Notes: a model not told the origin generated them from the letters alone. A stretch of 7,213 nt of DNA from Candidatus Mcinerneyibacteriota bacterium (GCA_030630935.1 DAOVMD010000149.1:1-7213), one strand, 5' to 3'; numbered from the stretch's first letter, positions 1 through 5,625 are shown. Numbers and translations: made by a program.

Positions 1-81
1 AATAGTATCTTCCCCTATCAACATCTTTCCTTTGATTTTGAAGATTGAGACACCTTCCTTTTCTTTGACTGTCAACTTCAT
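1..81 (-). CDS. STAS-domain protein, probable anti-sigma-factor antagonist (N-terminal 27 codons; runs off the left edge)
   Basis: Only the first 27 codons are in the window. Reading begins at ATG (81-79) and stays open to base 1. The peptide starts MKLTVKEKEGVSIFKIKGKM and continues LIGEDTI. This is the usual opening of SpoIIAA/RsbV-type STAS domains: a first strand, a short turn, a second strand ending in a K/D-G-K/R-type turn, then a hydrophobic residue and G-E before helix 1. Such proteins are phosphorylated on a serine by RsbW-like kinases and dephosphorylated by SpoIIE-type phosphatases; that serine would lie beyond the window. The start is well supported: AGGAG lies 6 bases upstream, inside the last codons of the molybdo-hydroxylase gene, whose TAG ends 3 bases before this ATG, so translation is probably coupled. 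The family call rests on a short stretch and could change once the rest is read. Confidence 0.68.
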   Translation of the reverse strand, partial: MKLTVKEKEGVSIFKIKGKMLIGEDTI

Positions 82-84
82 CTT

Positions 85-2352
85 CTACTCCTTTTTTTGT
101 TTTATTATTAATTCAGGAAGAGCCGGAATCTCTCTGACTCTAATCCCAGTTGCATTATAAATTGCATTAGTAATTGCAGGGGCGACGCCCATCAAGGGGC
201 ATTCTCCAAGGCCCTTTGCTTTATAAGGTCCCTTGGAATAACCTTCATTTACAATTATCGGTTTTACCAGGGGAACATCCATTGTAGTTGGAATTAGATA
301 TGTCGAGAACCCCGGGTTAATAAAAATACCTTTCTCAGAATAAAGGTTTTCCATGATACCGTAACCCATTCCCTGGATGACACCGCCTTCAATCTGACCC
401 TCTGCCATTTTGGGATTAATAGGCTGGCCAAAATCCTCAGCTGATACCAAATTCAATACTTCAACTTCACCGGTCTCAATATCTACTTCAACTTCTGCAG
501 TATTTGTTACAAATGAATAAATGAAGTAGGCATTACCTAAACCGGTATCATCATCCCAACTTGTTGAAGGTGCTTTGAACCAACCTTGAGATGTTAAGTG
601 ATATCGCTGATTAAAACAGTGTTCAACGACATCGATAAAAGAAATTTTTAATTCATTACCCGCAGTTAAAACCCGACCGTCAATTAATTCAATAGCTTCT
701 TCGGGCTTACCGGACAGCTCAGATGCGCCTAATAAAAGATAATGCTTAATCTGATCTGCAGCATTCCGAATTGCATTGCCTGTCATAACAGTTGAGCGGG
801 AAGCTACTGTGGGTCCGCTATCAGGAACACGACTTGTGTCGATAGGTAAGATTGTAACATTATCAGGTGAACAACCAAGGGCTTCAGCTGTTAACTGTGC
901 GAAAACAGTATTTGAACCTTGACCCATCTCTGTCGTACCAACCGCAACATTAACTGAACCATCTCTATATACCTGAATAAAAGCGCCTGCACGACGGAGC
1001 ATTCCTCCCTTCGCTCCTAACCCAACTCCATAAAATAAAGTTGAAATCCCGACACCGCGTCTCTTCCTTCCGGTCTTCTCAGAAGGTGGAATGAACTTAT
1101 TCTTCCAATCAATACCATCAGCAGCAAGATGTAATGATTTCTCAAGACCTACACTCTCGTCAAGGTCATGACTGGTCCCGGTCGAATCACCTACTTTTAA
1201 AATGTTTATTTGCCGAAGATCGATAGGTGAAAGATTCAGTTTCTCTGCAGCAATATCCATTTGAGTCTCACATGCAAAGATTACCTGGGGAGTTCCAAAA
1301 CCCCTGAATGCACCACAGGGAACAGTATTTGTTGCAACTGCATATGCGTCAATATGAATATTATCACAAGCATAAGGACCCATTGCATGAACCAACCCGC
1401 GCCAGAGAACAATGGGAGTTAGGGTCGAGTATGCACCGGCATTGAAGTAAAACTCTACTTTAATCGCAAGCAGTTTTCCAGCTTTTGAAAAGCCTGTTTT
1501 AAATTTAATCCAGGCAGGATGACGTTTACTCGTCGTCATAATATCTTCTGCTCTGTCAAAAACCATTTTAACCGGTTTATTCAAAATAACTGCGGGAACT
1601 GAAGCAAACCCTGCAATAATTGAAGGAACATCTTCCTTCCCTCCGAATGCTCCACCCGTTGTAGTATGAATAATCCGAACATCCGACAATGGATACCCGG
1701 TTATTTCAGAAACGCCTTCCTGAACATAAAAAGGACATTGCATAGAACCATAAACTGTAATGGTCTTCTCAGGATTCGGTACAGCAATCATTCCCTGTGT
1801 CTCAAGGTATGCATGTTCCTGGTAACCGGTTTTGTATTCTTCCTCAAAAGAAATATCAGAAGATTTAAAACCTTTCTCAAAATCACCTTTTCGAATCTTA
1901 TAATGTGAAAAAATATTATCCGGTTTTGAACAGATATCAGGGACGGTTTTATTAATGGAGTCCTCAATCGTTAAAATTGACGGGAGCTCTTCATAATCAA
2001 GTTTAATTAATGAAACTCCCTCTTCTGCAATATCGGGGTCATCAGCAACCACAATTGCAATGGCTTCACCGGCAAAATTAAAAACTTCATCAGCAAGTAA
2101 GGGTTGATCCTTCTCAACAACAGGGACAATATTCGCACCTGGAATATCCTTTGCTGTGAAGATTCCTTTTATCCCCGCTAATTTCTCAGCTGCTGAAAGA
2201 TCCAGGTTCTTAATCCGTCCCCGCGGGACTGGTGCTCGAAAAATCCTGGCGTAAAGCATGCTGTCGAAATAATAATCATCAATAAACTTTGCTGAACCAT
2301 TTACTTTTGAAACAGCATCAATTCTCTGAATTGACTTACCGATAAAACTCAT
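85..2352 (-). CDS. Xanthine dehydrogenase family protein, molybdopterin-binding subunit
   Basis: This 755-residue protein is the full usual length for a separate Mo subunit, without the fused Fe-S or FAD domains of eukaryotic XDH. The N-terminal a/b hammerhead domain covers about 1-125; Mo-cofactor domains follow. Visible motifs are GGAFGGKE (233-240), CGAFRGFG (346-353), EMGQG (475-479), SRSTVMTGNA (518-527) and GLGE (714-717). By family alignment from memory, Q205, F236, E240, R350 and E717 match bovine XDH Q767, F798, E802, R880 and E1261. E717 would be the base that activates the Mo-bound hydroxyl. The expected role is cytoplasmic hydroxylation of a purine or another N-heterocycle or aldehyde; the substrate cannot be read. 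The AYRCSFR loop of CO dehydrogenase is absent. ATG at 2352 follows the STAS stop by 2 bases, with a purine-rich AAAGAGAG upstream. No Fe-S or FAD partner subunit is in the window, and both neighbours are STAS genes, which is unusual. Confidence 0.93.
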   Translation of the reverse strand: MSFIGKSIQRIDAVSKVNGSAKFIDDYYFDSMLYARIFRAPVPRGRIKNLDLSAAEKLAGIKGIFTAKDIPGANIVPVVEKDQPLLADEVFNFAGEAIAIVVADDPDIAEEGVSLIKLDYEELPSILTIEDSINKTVPDICSKPDNIFSHYKIRKGDFEKGFKSSDISFEEEYKTGYQEHAYLETQGMIAVPNPEKTITVYGSMQCPFYVQEGVSEITGYPLSDVRIIHTTTGGAFGGKEDVPSIIAGFASVPAVILNKPVKMVFDRAEDIMTTSKRHPAWIKFKTGFSKAGKLLAIKVEFYFNAGAYSTLTPIVLWRGLVHAMGPYACDNIHIDAYAVATNTVPCGAFRGFGTPQVIFACETQMDIAAEKLNLSPIDLRQINILKVGDSTGTSHDLDESVGLEKSLHLAADGIDWKNKFIPPSEKTGRKRRGVGISTLFYGVGLGAKGGMLRRAGAFIQVYRDGSVNVAVGTTEMGQGSNTVFAQLTAEALGCSPDNVTILPIDTSRVPDSGPTVASRSTVMTGNAIRNAADQIKHYLLLGASELSGKPEEAIELIDGRVLTAGNELKISFIDVVEHCFNQRYHLTSQGWFKAPSTSWDDDTGLGNAYFIYSFVTNTAEVEVDIETGEVEVLNLVSAEDFGQPINPKMAEGQIEGGVIQGMGYGIMENLYSEKGIFINPGFSTYLIPTTMDVPLVKPIIVNEGYSKGPYKAKGLGECPLMGVAPAITNAIYNATGIRVREIPALPELIIKQKKE
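88..92 (-). promoter_or_regulatory. Shine-Dalgarno AGGAG for the second STAS gene
   Basis: On the minus strand AGGAG is followed by a 6-base spacer and ATG at 81. The motif lies within the last codons of the upstream gene, and that gene's TAG falls in the spacer. Ribosomes finishing the molybdo-hydroxylase gene would therefore end on the next start site. Confidence 0.7.
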
Positions 2353-2354
2353 AA

Positions 2355-2714
2355 TTAACTCTCTTTGAACTTTTTAATTGCATCAGTTTCTGAATCAAAT
2401 ATCTGGAAAATCTCATCAAATTCAAGCAGCTTAAATATTTCAAAAACATCTGGGATCATCCTGACCAGTTTAAGATCTCCGTTATTTTCACGGATATTCT
2501 TTATCTCACTTACAAATATTCCCCAACCCGCACTGCTAATATAATCAATCTCTTCAAGGTTAATTATAATCTTGAAAATACTGTCATAAACTAATTTCCT
2601 GATTGCATGTTCAAAATCACTGGAAGTATTTGAGTCAAGAAACCCCTGTAATTTTATTACTGCAATATCAGGATTGTTAGTGTCTTTTTCAACTTTAATT
2701 GATAGACCAGGCAT
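2355..2714 (-). CDS. STAS-domain protein, anti-sigma-factor antagonist (SpoIIAA/RsbV type)
   Basis: A stand-alone STAS domain of 119 residues, or 121 if the ATG at 2720 is used. In the 121-residue numbering, the first strands cover about 6-27 (LSIKVEKD, then IAVIKLQGFLDS). Helix 1 follows, then the strand IFKIIINLEEIDYI and the phosphorylation loop ISSAGWG (61-67), where S63 aligns with the phosphoserine of SpoIIAA. Such proteins bind an RsbW-like anti-sigma or switch kinase when unphosphorylated and are reset by a SpoIIE-type phosphatase. The D before the two serines in SpoIIAA is I here, a change common in many STAS antagonists. The start at 2714 is preferred because AGGA lies 5 bases upstream, whereas the same AGGA overlaps the first base of the ATG at 2720. 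It is the first gene of its unit, with a candidate promoter just upstream. The kinase and phosphatase domains of the membrane protein at 3382-5625 are the obvious partners. Confidence 0.9.
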   Translation of the reverse strand: MPGLSIKVEKDTNNPDIAVIKLQGFLDSNTSSDFEHAIRKLVYDSIFKIIINLEEIDYISSAGWGIFVSEIKNIRENNGDLKLVRMIPDVFEIFKLLEFDEIFQIFDSETDAIKKFKES

Positions 2715-2719
2715 ATTCA

Positions 2720-2723
2720 TCCT
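2720..2723 (-). promoter_or_regulatory. Shine-Dalgarno AGGA that decides the first STAS start
   Basis: The minus strand reads ATAGGATGAATATG. AGGA (2723-2720) includes the A of the upstream ATG, so it cannot serve that start. It sits 5 bases before the second ATG at 2714, an ordinary distance. Confidence 0.55.
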
Positions 2724-2746: not shown

Positions 2747-2775
2747 AGTTTATCATAAATATATAAAAAAGTCAA
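2747..2775 (-). promoter_or_regulatory. Candidate sigma-70-type promoter for the STAS / molybdo-hydroxylase / STAS unit
   Basis: On the minus strand TTGACT (2775-2770) is followed by a 17-base AT-rich spacer and TAAACT (2752-2747). Transcription would start near 2740 and leave a leader of about 25 bases. A better -10 word, TATGAT (2757-2752), lies in the spacer but only 12 bases from the -35. The whole area is AT-rich, so chance matches are easy. Its position just before the first gene after a long spacer supports the call. No regulator site can be named. Confidence 0.45.
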
Positions 2776-2889: not shown

Positions 2890-2978
2890 TTTCATACTAT
2901 GTAACTTCGCATAAGTCTTTCGACACTATTGCTTTTTATCATTGCAAAAAATGTTATTCCATATAATTATTATTCATG

Positions 2979-3018
2979 TCAGTTGCACGATTGGCCAATT
3001 GGCCAATCGTGCAACTGA
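2979..3018. repeat. Perfect 40-bp palindrome with no central spacer
   Basis: Each half is tcagttgcacgattggccaa, and the second half is its exact reverse complement. The centre reads TTGGCCAA twice in tandem. The first mismatch outside is at 2978/3019. RNA from either strand could fold into a long hairpin, but neither side has a T-run, so it does not look like an intrinsic terminator. It ends about 205 bases upstream of the promoter candidate. Possible explanations are a REP-like or mobile-element remnant, a large operator, a recombination site, or an assembly or amplification artefact. Confidence 0.9.
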
Positions 3019-3111
3019 AGATAATGTTGTTTAATGACGAATTAAAAATGCGCCGCTATATTAATCTCGCTATGTTTCGATGCGCAAGAGACAAATAACA
3101 GTTTATTTAAA

Positions 3112-3381: not shown

Positions 3382-5625
3382 CTATTTTTTCATGTACTTG
3401 CTGTAGATTCGACGTTTTTCTTTATTGGTAAGATTTAACCGCTTTAATTCCTTTAACAGTATCTTTTCATCAATCTCAATTTCCATCTCATTCAATTTTT
3501 TCATGATTCTTTTTATGCCAAAATCCGGAGTCGCCTTAATAACGTCGAGGACTTTTTCAATCAATTCAAATGGTAGAAAGTTTATTTTTTCAAATCGTTT
3601 TTCATAAATACCCTGACTCTGTCCGAGGTCTTTTATTAAGACTAAAGTGATATCATCACTCTGGGGTTGGTCCCCAATAAAATCACTTAGACTCCGTTCT
3701 AATATCTCAAGAAATTTACCGAGTTCCTTTTTATTGGAATTTTTTATAATCTTTAAAAATCGTTTTTGGGAATATTGTTCAAATTTGGCATTCATCGCTT
3801 CCGTAATTCCATCAGTATAAATAATTATCAAGTCATCTTTCTTCAGTTTAATTGTTTCAGATTTTATAGATTTCAAAAAGAAATCCGTTTCCATTAATTT
3901 CAATCCAATCGGAATCCCTTTTGGGTTTAAAGAATAAACTTCACCCGTTTCACCTCGGTGAAGCAGCATTGGAGTATGACCTGCACTTGAGAATTGGAGT
4001 TCATGAGTTTTCGTATTTAAGATAACAAAATAAATTGTTATAAACATTCCTCTATTGAGATCGTTCTGAATTATATTATTTAATTTTATCATCACTTCTT
4101 TTGCTGAATGACTCCGTGGTGCGATTAACCTGACTGCAGTTCTAATCATTGTCATTATCATTGATCCCGGAACACCTTTGCCGGAGACATCTGCTACTAT
4201 GATCCCCAGTTTATTCTTTGAGATGGGAATGAAATCATAATAGTCACCGCCAACTTCTTTTGCTGATTTATAAAATGCGTTTATCTCAAACTCGTCCAGG
4301 TCAGGAAATATTTTTGGGAGGAGAGTCTGCTGAATACTCTGTGCAACCTGCATTTCTTTTTTTAAAAGTTCATGATCAAGAAGGTCACGCTGAGCATCTG
4401 TAAGGGTGTTTCGCGTCTCTTCAAAACGCATTGCAAATTCATTAAATATACGCTTTATCTGGCTGAATTCGTCTTTTCCGCGCATCGTATGCGGTCTGGA
4501 AAGTTTACCGCTTTCAATCTCCATTACCCCGTCAAATAATTTCTTCACCGGAGCAACAAAGAAATAAACAACAAGGATTATCGCGGTAAAACCTATCCCA
4601 ATTAAAAATATTATAAAATTCCGCAGATTGGTTTGATGTAATTCCTTAACTTGAATTTTAATCATTTTGAAATCAACAACAGAGTATATTACACCCAACT
4701 CATTTTCACTTTGAAGAATTATATACTTTAATAGAAGCTGATTGTTATCCAAAATATAATAGTGAAATCCGGTTTTCTCAAGAAACAATAATAACTCCGG
4801 ATCTTTATAAACTGTTAAGAATTTATTGATATCCGTATCAGCAACAATTATATTTTCATTATTTACAATAAAAATTTCTTTTAGATAATCATTCTTTATC
4901 TCACAACTCTTAATTAAAATTGATAAGTATTCATAGTTTTTTTCTAAAATCGAGATTTTACTTGTATTTCCAATATCTGAAATGGAGCTCTCAATTTGGT
5001 TAAATATCCCTTTTTCAAAAGTTTTTTCCTGTTCTGTTTGGAAAAACCAGAAGGCACCGGTAGAGATTAAACAGATTGTTAAAATTATAATAGATGGCCA
5101 CTTCAATCCGATCCCGAAGAGAATCGGTCTGCGAATGGATTTTGTTAAGGTTAAGATATTATAAATATCATCCTTTCGTGATGAGATTTTATCTACCAGG
5201 TTTTTAATAAGATAAATCCCAAACCCGCCTTTTCTCTGGGATTTCATATAGTTCTCAAGGTCCGGAGCCGGGATGCTTTCCCAATCAAAACCGATTGTCT
5301 TATCCTTTAAAACGATTTCAATTCTCAAGAATCTGAAGAATGCCCGGAACTCAATATCAATAAAAACATCTCCAACTTCATATTTATAACCATGTTTCAT
5401 TATATTTGTAAACGCTTCATCTGTTGCAAGGATAATATTATAAACATCTTCTTGAAGAAGACCGTACTTATAACATTTCTCCTTGATAAAATTTTGAAGT
5501 CCCCGTAAACCACTGCCATCTGACTTTGTATTATATGAAAACTTTTTCACTCTTATTAAATTAAATTTCTCTGCAAGGTCAAGGATTTTCATGGTAAATT
5601 TACTCGGTCCGATTTTTTTCTTCAC
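3382..5625 (-). CDS. Membrane-bound partner-switch protein: RsbW-like kinase domain, sensor, HAMP, SpoIIE/PP2C phosphatase, HTH-like tail
   Basis: A 747-residue protein. Residues about 35-165 form an RsbW/SpoIIAB-type ATPase, with N-box DEAFTNIMKHGY (69-80, E70 and N74), a G1 box with D108 and G112 (its first glycine is T110), and G2 box KGGFGIYLI (132-140). Membrane segments at about 176-195 and 335-358 enclose a sensor region of about 140 residues, possibly a single Cache/PAS-like fold. HAMP (about 359-410, DEF at 385-387) and a short coiled coil lead to a PP2C/SpoIIE domain (about 425-665). Its metal-binding motifs are intact: GGDYYDF (459-465), ADVSGKG (478-484), TDG (604-606), SDD (656-658). 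Residues about 680-747 resemble a helix-turn-helix of the transposase/integrase type. It likely phosphorylates and dephosphorylates STAS proteins in response to a periplasmic signal. The start is GTG, 5 bases after the previous stop, with GGGGA 9 bases upstream. ATG at codon 12 is a weaker alternative. There is no HisKA phosphoacceptor region, so it is not a histidine kinase. Confidence 0.9.
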   Translation of the reverse strand: MKKKIGPSKFTMKILDLAEKFNLIRVKKFSYNTKSDGSGLRGLQNFIKEKCYKYGLLQEDVYNIILATDEAFTNIMKHGYKYEVGDVFIDIEFRAFFRFLRIEIVLKDKTIGFDWESIPAPDLENYMKSQRKGGFGIYLIKNLVDKISSRKDDIYNILTLTKSIRRPILFGIGLKWPSIIILTICLISTGAFWFFQTEQEKTFEKGIFNQIESSISDIGNTSKISILEKNYEYLSILIKSCEIKNDYLKEIFIVNNENIIVADTDINKFLTVYKDPELLLFLEKTGFHYYILDNNQLLLKYIILQSENELGVIYSVVDFKMIKIQVKELHQTNLRNFIIFLIGIGFTAIILVVYFFVAPVKKLFDGVMEIESGKLSRPHTMRGKDEFSQIKRIFNEFAMRFEETRNTLTDAQRDLLDHELLKKEMQVAQSIQQTLLPKIFPDLDEFEINAFYKSAKEVGGDYYDFIPISKNKLGIIVADVSGKGVPGSMIMTMIRTAVRLIAPRSHSAKEVMIKLNNIIQNDLNRGMFITIYFVILNTKTHELQFSSAGHTPMLLHRGETGEVYSLNPKGIPIGLKLMETDFFLKSIKSETIKLKKDDLIIIYTDGITEAMNAKFEQYSQKRFLKIIKNSNKKELGKFLEILERSLSDFIGDQPQSDDITLVLIKDLGQSQGIYEKRFEKINFLPFELIEKVLDVIKATPDFGIKRIMKKLNEMEIEIDEKILLKELKRLNLTNKEKRRIYSKYMKK

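Follow-up and report, generated by a model that had tools for sequence, protein, structure and literature searches.

Organization of the locus

The window analysed here is an entire contig of 7,213 nt (G000:C63; Candidatus Mcinerneyibacteriota bacterium, GCA_030630935.1 DAOVMD010000149.1:1-7213) belonging to a fragmented MAG of 3.16 Mb (G000; 471 contigs, 80% complete). The following features were identified, given in their order along the minus strand:

7211-5631, minus strand: outer-membrane/TPR-type protein, 5' end open (ORF call)
3382-5625, minus strand: RsbW-like kinase, membrane segment, HAMP and SpoIIE phosphatase in a single protein (ORF, Pfam)
2747-2775, minus strand: sigma-70-like promoter upstream of STAS1, TTGACT-17-TAAACT with TG before the -10 (consensus match only)
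2355-2720, minus strand: STAS1, a single-domain STAS protein of the anti-sigma-factor-antagonist type, 121 aa (ORF, Pfam)
85-2352, minus strand: XDH-family molybdopterin-binding (Mo) subunit, 755 aa, intact (ORF, Pfam, active-site residues)
88-93, minus strand: ribosome site of STAS2, AAGGAG, within the 3' end of XDH (same site found in G001)
1-81, minus strand: first 27 codons of STAS2, truncated by the contig end at base 1 (identity to STAS2 of G001)

STAS1 is followed after 2 bases by XDH and XDH after 3 bases by STAS2, and the gene of the RsbW-SpoIIE fusion lies upstream of STAS1 with 661 bp between them. A first-pass annotation of this DNA had given these coordinates and gaps and had placed the STAS2 ribosome site inside XDH, all of which proved correct. 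A search of the window against Rfam returned zero matches.

A perfect 40-bp palindrome was observed at positions 2979-3018, within a MITE-like imperfect palindrome (unit about 2905-3095) whose ends resemble ctatataactgcgcat/atgcgcagttatatag. Twelve copies of this element were found in G000, in gaps between genes, and none in G001; paired changes among the copies preserve the palindrome, and a strong hairpin is predicted (z -4.8).

Comparison at the family level covers two genomes, both incomplete, namely G000 and one other member of a different genus (G001). In the latter, contig C198 was found to encode the TPR protein, the RsbW-SpoIIE fusion, STAS1 and XDH up to residue 649, with the order of the fusion gene and STAS1 shared with the window. 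Contig C348 carries the last 128 codons of XDH (87% identical to the window), followed by a STAS2 of 136 aa, a GAF/SpoIIE phosphatase, a HATPase_c_2 (RsbW-type) kinase and a TonB-dependent receptor. As the facing ends of the two contigs agree at 64 of 65 bases (compared by eye), they are very probably adjacent. The gaps around XDH in G001 are 12 and 1 bases, so exact spacing is not fixed between the genera.

The order STAS1-XDH-STAS2 is real, being found in two independent assemblies. That the STAS-XDH joins are chimeras of assembly or binning is highly improbable. The window does come from a MAG in 471 contigs and ends within STAS2, and XDH of G001 is divided between two contigs, but identical joins occur in both assemblies at approximately 71% protein identity and the contig ends of G001 overlap.

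A promoter-like sequence with the layout of that in the window was identified upstream of STAS1 in G001 (TTGACA-17-TAAAAT with TG before the -10; consensus match), with the remainder of the intergenic gap differing between the two genomes. This shared layout, together with gaps of 1-12 bases, makes it likely that a single transcript runs from STAS1 onwards and includes XDH and STAS2, although a consensus match is no proof. The co-transcription envisaged in the first-pass annotation is supported by these features and by the position of the STAS2 ribosome site within XDH.

The XDH-family Mo subunit

Pfam domains Ald_Xan_dh_C, MoCoBD_1 and MoCoBD_2 were identified across the full length of the XDH product (86.5, 273.2 and 282.3 bits, each exceeding its cut-off; E 2e-24 to 6e-84), and it was found to align over its length with bovine xanthine oxidase (E 2e-95) and other molybdo-hydroxylases. 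Active-site residues Q205, E240, R350 and E717 are intact; they align with bovine Q767, E802, R880 and E1261. The catalytic Glu (E717) and the cofactor-site Gln (Q205) are invariant in all 41 aligned sequences and, with the three domains, place the protein in the broad molybdo-hydroxylase family. The substrate-binding Glu (E240, motif FGGKE) and Arg (R350, motif AFRGFG) of the purine type are also present, with E240 kept in 38/38 aligned members of the XDH clade and replaced by A/Q in the three paralogues. The same three domains and active-site positions are found in the Mo subunits of known enzymes of the XDH type (bovine XDH/XO, Rhodobacter capsulatus XdhB, Escherichia coli XdhA and PucD). 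In contrast to these, the protein of the window scored below the purine-specific equivalog cut-offs of NCBIfam (XdhA, PucD and XdhB; the best was XdhA with 535.8 against 780 bits), and its gene lies apart from its putative 2Fe-2S (FeS) and FAD pair, on another contig. Since every equivalog cut-off was missed, it was assigned to the XDH family, with an active site of the xanthine type, and not to XdhA.

Codon differences between the XDH genes of G000 and G001 were 0.23, 0.16 and 0.56 at positions 1, 2 and 3, respectively. This concentration of changes at third positions between genera indicates that the gene is under purifying selection and, with the intact active site, rules out gene decay.

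Orthologues of XDH in Bipolaricaulota were found clustered with an AA_kinase-family gene and two genes of the carbamoyltransferase (OTCase) type, with a PALP (PLP) enzyme in one. The uricolytic cluster of E. coli contains the genes YqeA, YgeW and YgeX (PMC12507026), and the resemblance of the Bipolaricaulota neighbours to this cluster supports a role in purine metabolism. Clusters for anaerobic (reductive) degradation of purines and uric acid (XdhD/XdhA, YgeW, YqeA, YgeX, SsnA; PMC12507026) thus have like neighbours to those of the Bipolaricaulota orthologues, but the XDH copy of the window itself lies outside any such cluster. Other Mo subunits of G000 were found with AllG/AllH-type genes and an amidohydrolase alongside.

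Putative FeS and FAD partners encoded elsewhere

No FeS or FAD gene was found beside XDH in the window, on either contig of G001 or in the sister family (five genomes, G002-G006). Among the 45 relatives for which 3 kb or more of sequence flanks XDH on each side, both an FeS and a FAD gene lie within a radius of 5 kb in 20 and neither does in another 20; an orphan Mo subunit is thus common among these relatives. The premise of the first-pass annotation, that Mo subunits normally adjoin their FeS and FAD genes, therefore fails in this XDH clade.

An FeS-FAD pair with no adjoining Mo subunit was identified at G000:C84:6871-8177, and one such orphan pair is present in each genome of the class (G000 and equivalents in G001-G006). 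An NTPase_1 gene comes next in both families (not seen on the short stretch available for G005), and the upstream neighbour varies: in G000 it is of the FmdE type, G001 has a gene resembling it, and sister-family genomes have XdhC. On the G000 contig (L238:6380-8733), accC-like and FmdE-type genes precede the pair and NTPase_1 comes after it. In a joined FeS and FAD tree, all seven orphan pairs were found to group, with moderate support (SH-aLRT 88), with the cognate subunits of this clade, which are encoded beside its XDH genes in other phyla; the FeS and FAD subunits of the paralogues fall apart from both. The simplest reading of these sequence data is that the orphan pairs are the displaced partners of the XDH Mo subunit, in which case cognate 2Fe-2S and FAD subunits of a purine enzyme would be available in G000 through the C84 pair. 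We infer that the XDH gene encodes the Mo subunit, displaced from its partners, of a molybdo-hydroxylase of the purine type, with purine as the putative substrate.

STAS proteins and the partner-switching module

STAS1 was matched to the Pfam STAS family (E 3.8e-18) and is 72% identical to its orthologue in G001. The 27-aa stub of STAS2 alone matched no Pfam family, but its residues are 93% identical to the first 27 of the complete STAS2 of G001, which carries PF01740 (STAS; E 2.6e-14). This match identifies the truncated left gene as STAS, and its designation in the first-pass annotation as a second STAS gene was right. Searches of G000 by protein and by DNA gave no contig continuing STAS2 (bin 80% complete). 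Ser is present in the motifs YISSAGW of STAS1 and YMDSAGI of STAS2, a position that, judging by the motif, we take to be the usual STAS phosphorylation site.

In G001, the genes of the GAF/SpoIIE phosphatase and the RsbW-type kinase (L114:822-2198 and 2195-2626) continue the run from STAS2, so the XDH-bearing operon carries a full partner-switching module with a SpoIIE/RsbU-type phosphatase and its kinase in the same operon; the contig of the window ends earlier. A single-domain STAS protein, a HATPase_c_2 kinase and a GAF and SpoIIE (PPM) phosphatase in one run are likewise found in the modules RsbV/RsbW/RsbU and SpoIIAA/SpoIIAB/SpoIIE. The present locus differs from these in having a metabolic enzyme gene between two STAS genes, and no candidate for a sigma factor or other switch-target gene was found on the stretches examined around it.

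In the protein encoded at 3382-5625, partner-switch kinase and phosphatase are joined in one polypeptide, and the G001 orthologue of this protein is of equal length and identical layout. The nearest kin of STAS1 in the sister family was found to directly follow a SpoIIE gene, with no XDH, and a pairing of STAS1 with the upstream RsbW-SpoIIE fusion fits this arrangement. Eight STAS matches were counted in each of G000 and G001, against one to three per genome in the sister family, numbers that represent an expansion of switch proteins in the family of the window.

Gene neighbourhoods of XDH among relatives

The XDH orthologues of the sister family are 46-48% identical to the gene of the window and form one clade with it (SH-aLRT 90) in a Mo-subunit tree with several long branches. 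They follow thiC in all five genomes, the spacing (overlap or gap) ranging from -20 to 0. In four of the five (G002-G005; loci L116-L119), XDH overlaps a small gene leading into gatA and gatB, and in G006 gatA follows XDH after 188 bp. A GatC family search of the sister family scored nothing, and it is by its position alone that the 100-aa gene upstream of gatA is designated gatC. G001 has, after thiC and the thi genes, a gene of the metallo-beta-lactamase fold in the place that XDH occupies in the sister family; it is Apyc1-like (L378:309-1028). Because XDH stands after thiC in the sister family and not in G001, it has moved from one operon to another within the class. The sister-family gene is packed just as tightly, among genes that have no obvious connection with it, and a special link of XDH with STAS is not supported.

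A survey of the best 80 relatives in genome contigs identified STAS within 5 kb of XDH in three, namely the contig of G001 and two loci from related MAGs (L035 and L036). In the latter two, an XDH-FeS-XdhC-FAD run is followed by STAS-RsbW after 80 and 147 bp. Identity of STAS2 to the STAS proteins of L035 and L036 was 31-35%, against 39-40% to STAS proteins of unrelated genomes. With gaps of this size and no special kinship to STAS2, these loci were rejected as strong independent support for an association of XDH with STAS. A conserved order of STAS, XDH and STAS, which the first-pass annotation had proposed to look for in related genomes, was kept in G001, but the sister family has thiC and gat neighbours instead.

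Relationship between the enzyme and the switch

Between G000 and G001, neighbours were found to be conserved for 30 of 35 pairs at all spacings and for 21 of 23 tight same-strand pairs, the latter a small baseline of partly non-independent pairs from sampled contigs, some of which read as N. Against this background, a STAS-XDH order shared by two genera is expected, and linkage beyond background synteny, which would mark a STAS-regulated enzyme, was not found, the sister family having XDH with thiC and gat. It is probable that XDH is an ordinary displaced enzyme gene in a partner-switching operon, linked to the switch through shared transcription only. The first-pass annotation had offered as its alternative that the Mo subunit was lodged in a STAS operon, and this fits best, with the sister-family gene equally tight between thiC and gat and the FeS and FAD genes elsewhere. 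Its main proposal, an enzyme made in fixed ratio with a partner-switching module, its activity or assembly tied to phosphorylation of the STAS proteins, was not supported: nothing found points to such a complex or control, and conservation in two genera is as expected from background synteny.

As an ordinary displaced enzyme gene, XDH would supply a Mo subunit that assembles as one enzyme with FeS and FAD proteins encoded at another locus, and the assembled three-protein enzyme would hydroxylate purines. STAS2, the GAF/SpoIIE phosphatase and the RsbW kinase would form a separate switch in which, as in the textbook cycle, the phosphatase would dephosphorylate STAS, which would then capture RsbW and free the target of RsbW. 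STAS1 would act as a partner switch with the upstream RsbW-SpoIIE fusion. The tie between enzyme and switch would be shared transcription only, as for thiC and gat in the sister family. Counting against this reading are the retention of STAS1-XDH-STAS2 in both family genomes compared, the STAS2 ribosome site within XDH, which translational coupling would also give, and the presence of STAS-RsbW after a full XDH operon in L035 and L036. The small size of the synteny baseline and the moderate support for the FeS and FAD grouping also weigh against it.

These same features, with the single promoter-like site and the small gaps, are also what would be seen if the hydroxylase and the switch were needed together (for example, in starvation or purine use), with selection keeping them on one transcript and STAS not touching the enzyme. 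Such adaptive co-regulation is considered rather unlikely, as in the sister family this enzyme is kept beside thiC and gat, and gene order is so generally conserved in the family that it carries little information.

A direct contact, in which STAS binds the Mo subunit, or the Mo subunit is a sensor or output of the switch, and phosphorylation controls activity, assembly or signalling, would be in keeping with the Ser retained in both STAS motifs and with the kinase and phosphatase genes that belong to this run in G001. Direct action of a STAS protein on an enzyme has a precedent in SiaABCD of Pseudomonas aeruginosa, likewise an operon of a STAS protein, a kinase, a phosphatase and an enzyme gene, where SiaC binds and activates the diguanylate cyclase SiaD (PMC8457831). 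In the present system, by contrast, relatives of the enzyme stand in unrelated operons. Outside the family of the window, STAS was found near orthologues in L035 and L036 only among the 80 relatives surveyed, the kin of STAS1 in the sister family adjoins SpoIIE with no XDH, and an ordinary switch already appears complete with STAS2, the phosphatase and the kinase. Furthermore, a search of one literature library found no paper joining the STAS domain, xanthine dehydrogenase and partner switching. Direct coupling is accordingly judged improbable, and control of the enzyme by STAS phosphorylation unlikely. The more specific form, in which both STAS proteins bind the Mo subunit and its assembly with the FeS and FAD subunits comes under the control of the GAF/SpoIIE phosphatase and RsbW, or the hydroxylase reports to the switch, appears distinctly improbable.

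Implications

If true, contact between STAS and the enzyme would extend partner switching to molybdo-enzymes. With XDH as an ordinary displaced gene, the locus provides a worked example in which tight spacing and conservation in two genomes point to a functional link, but a broader comparison lends it no support. The clade of XDH-type Mo subunits described here, whose gene is split from those of its putative FeS and FAD partners and moves between operons, matters for annotation by neighbourhood.
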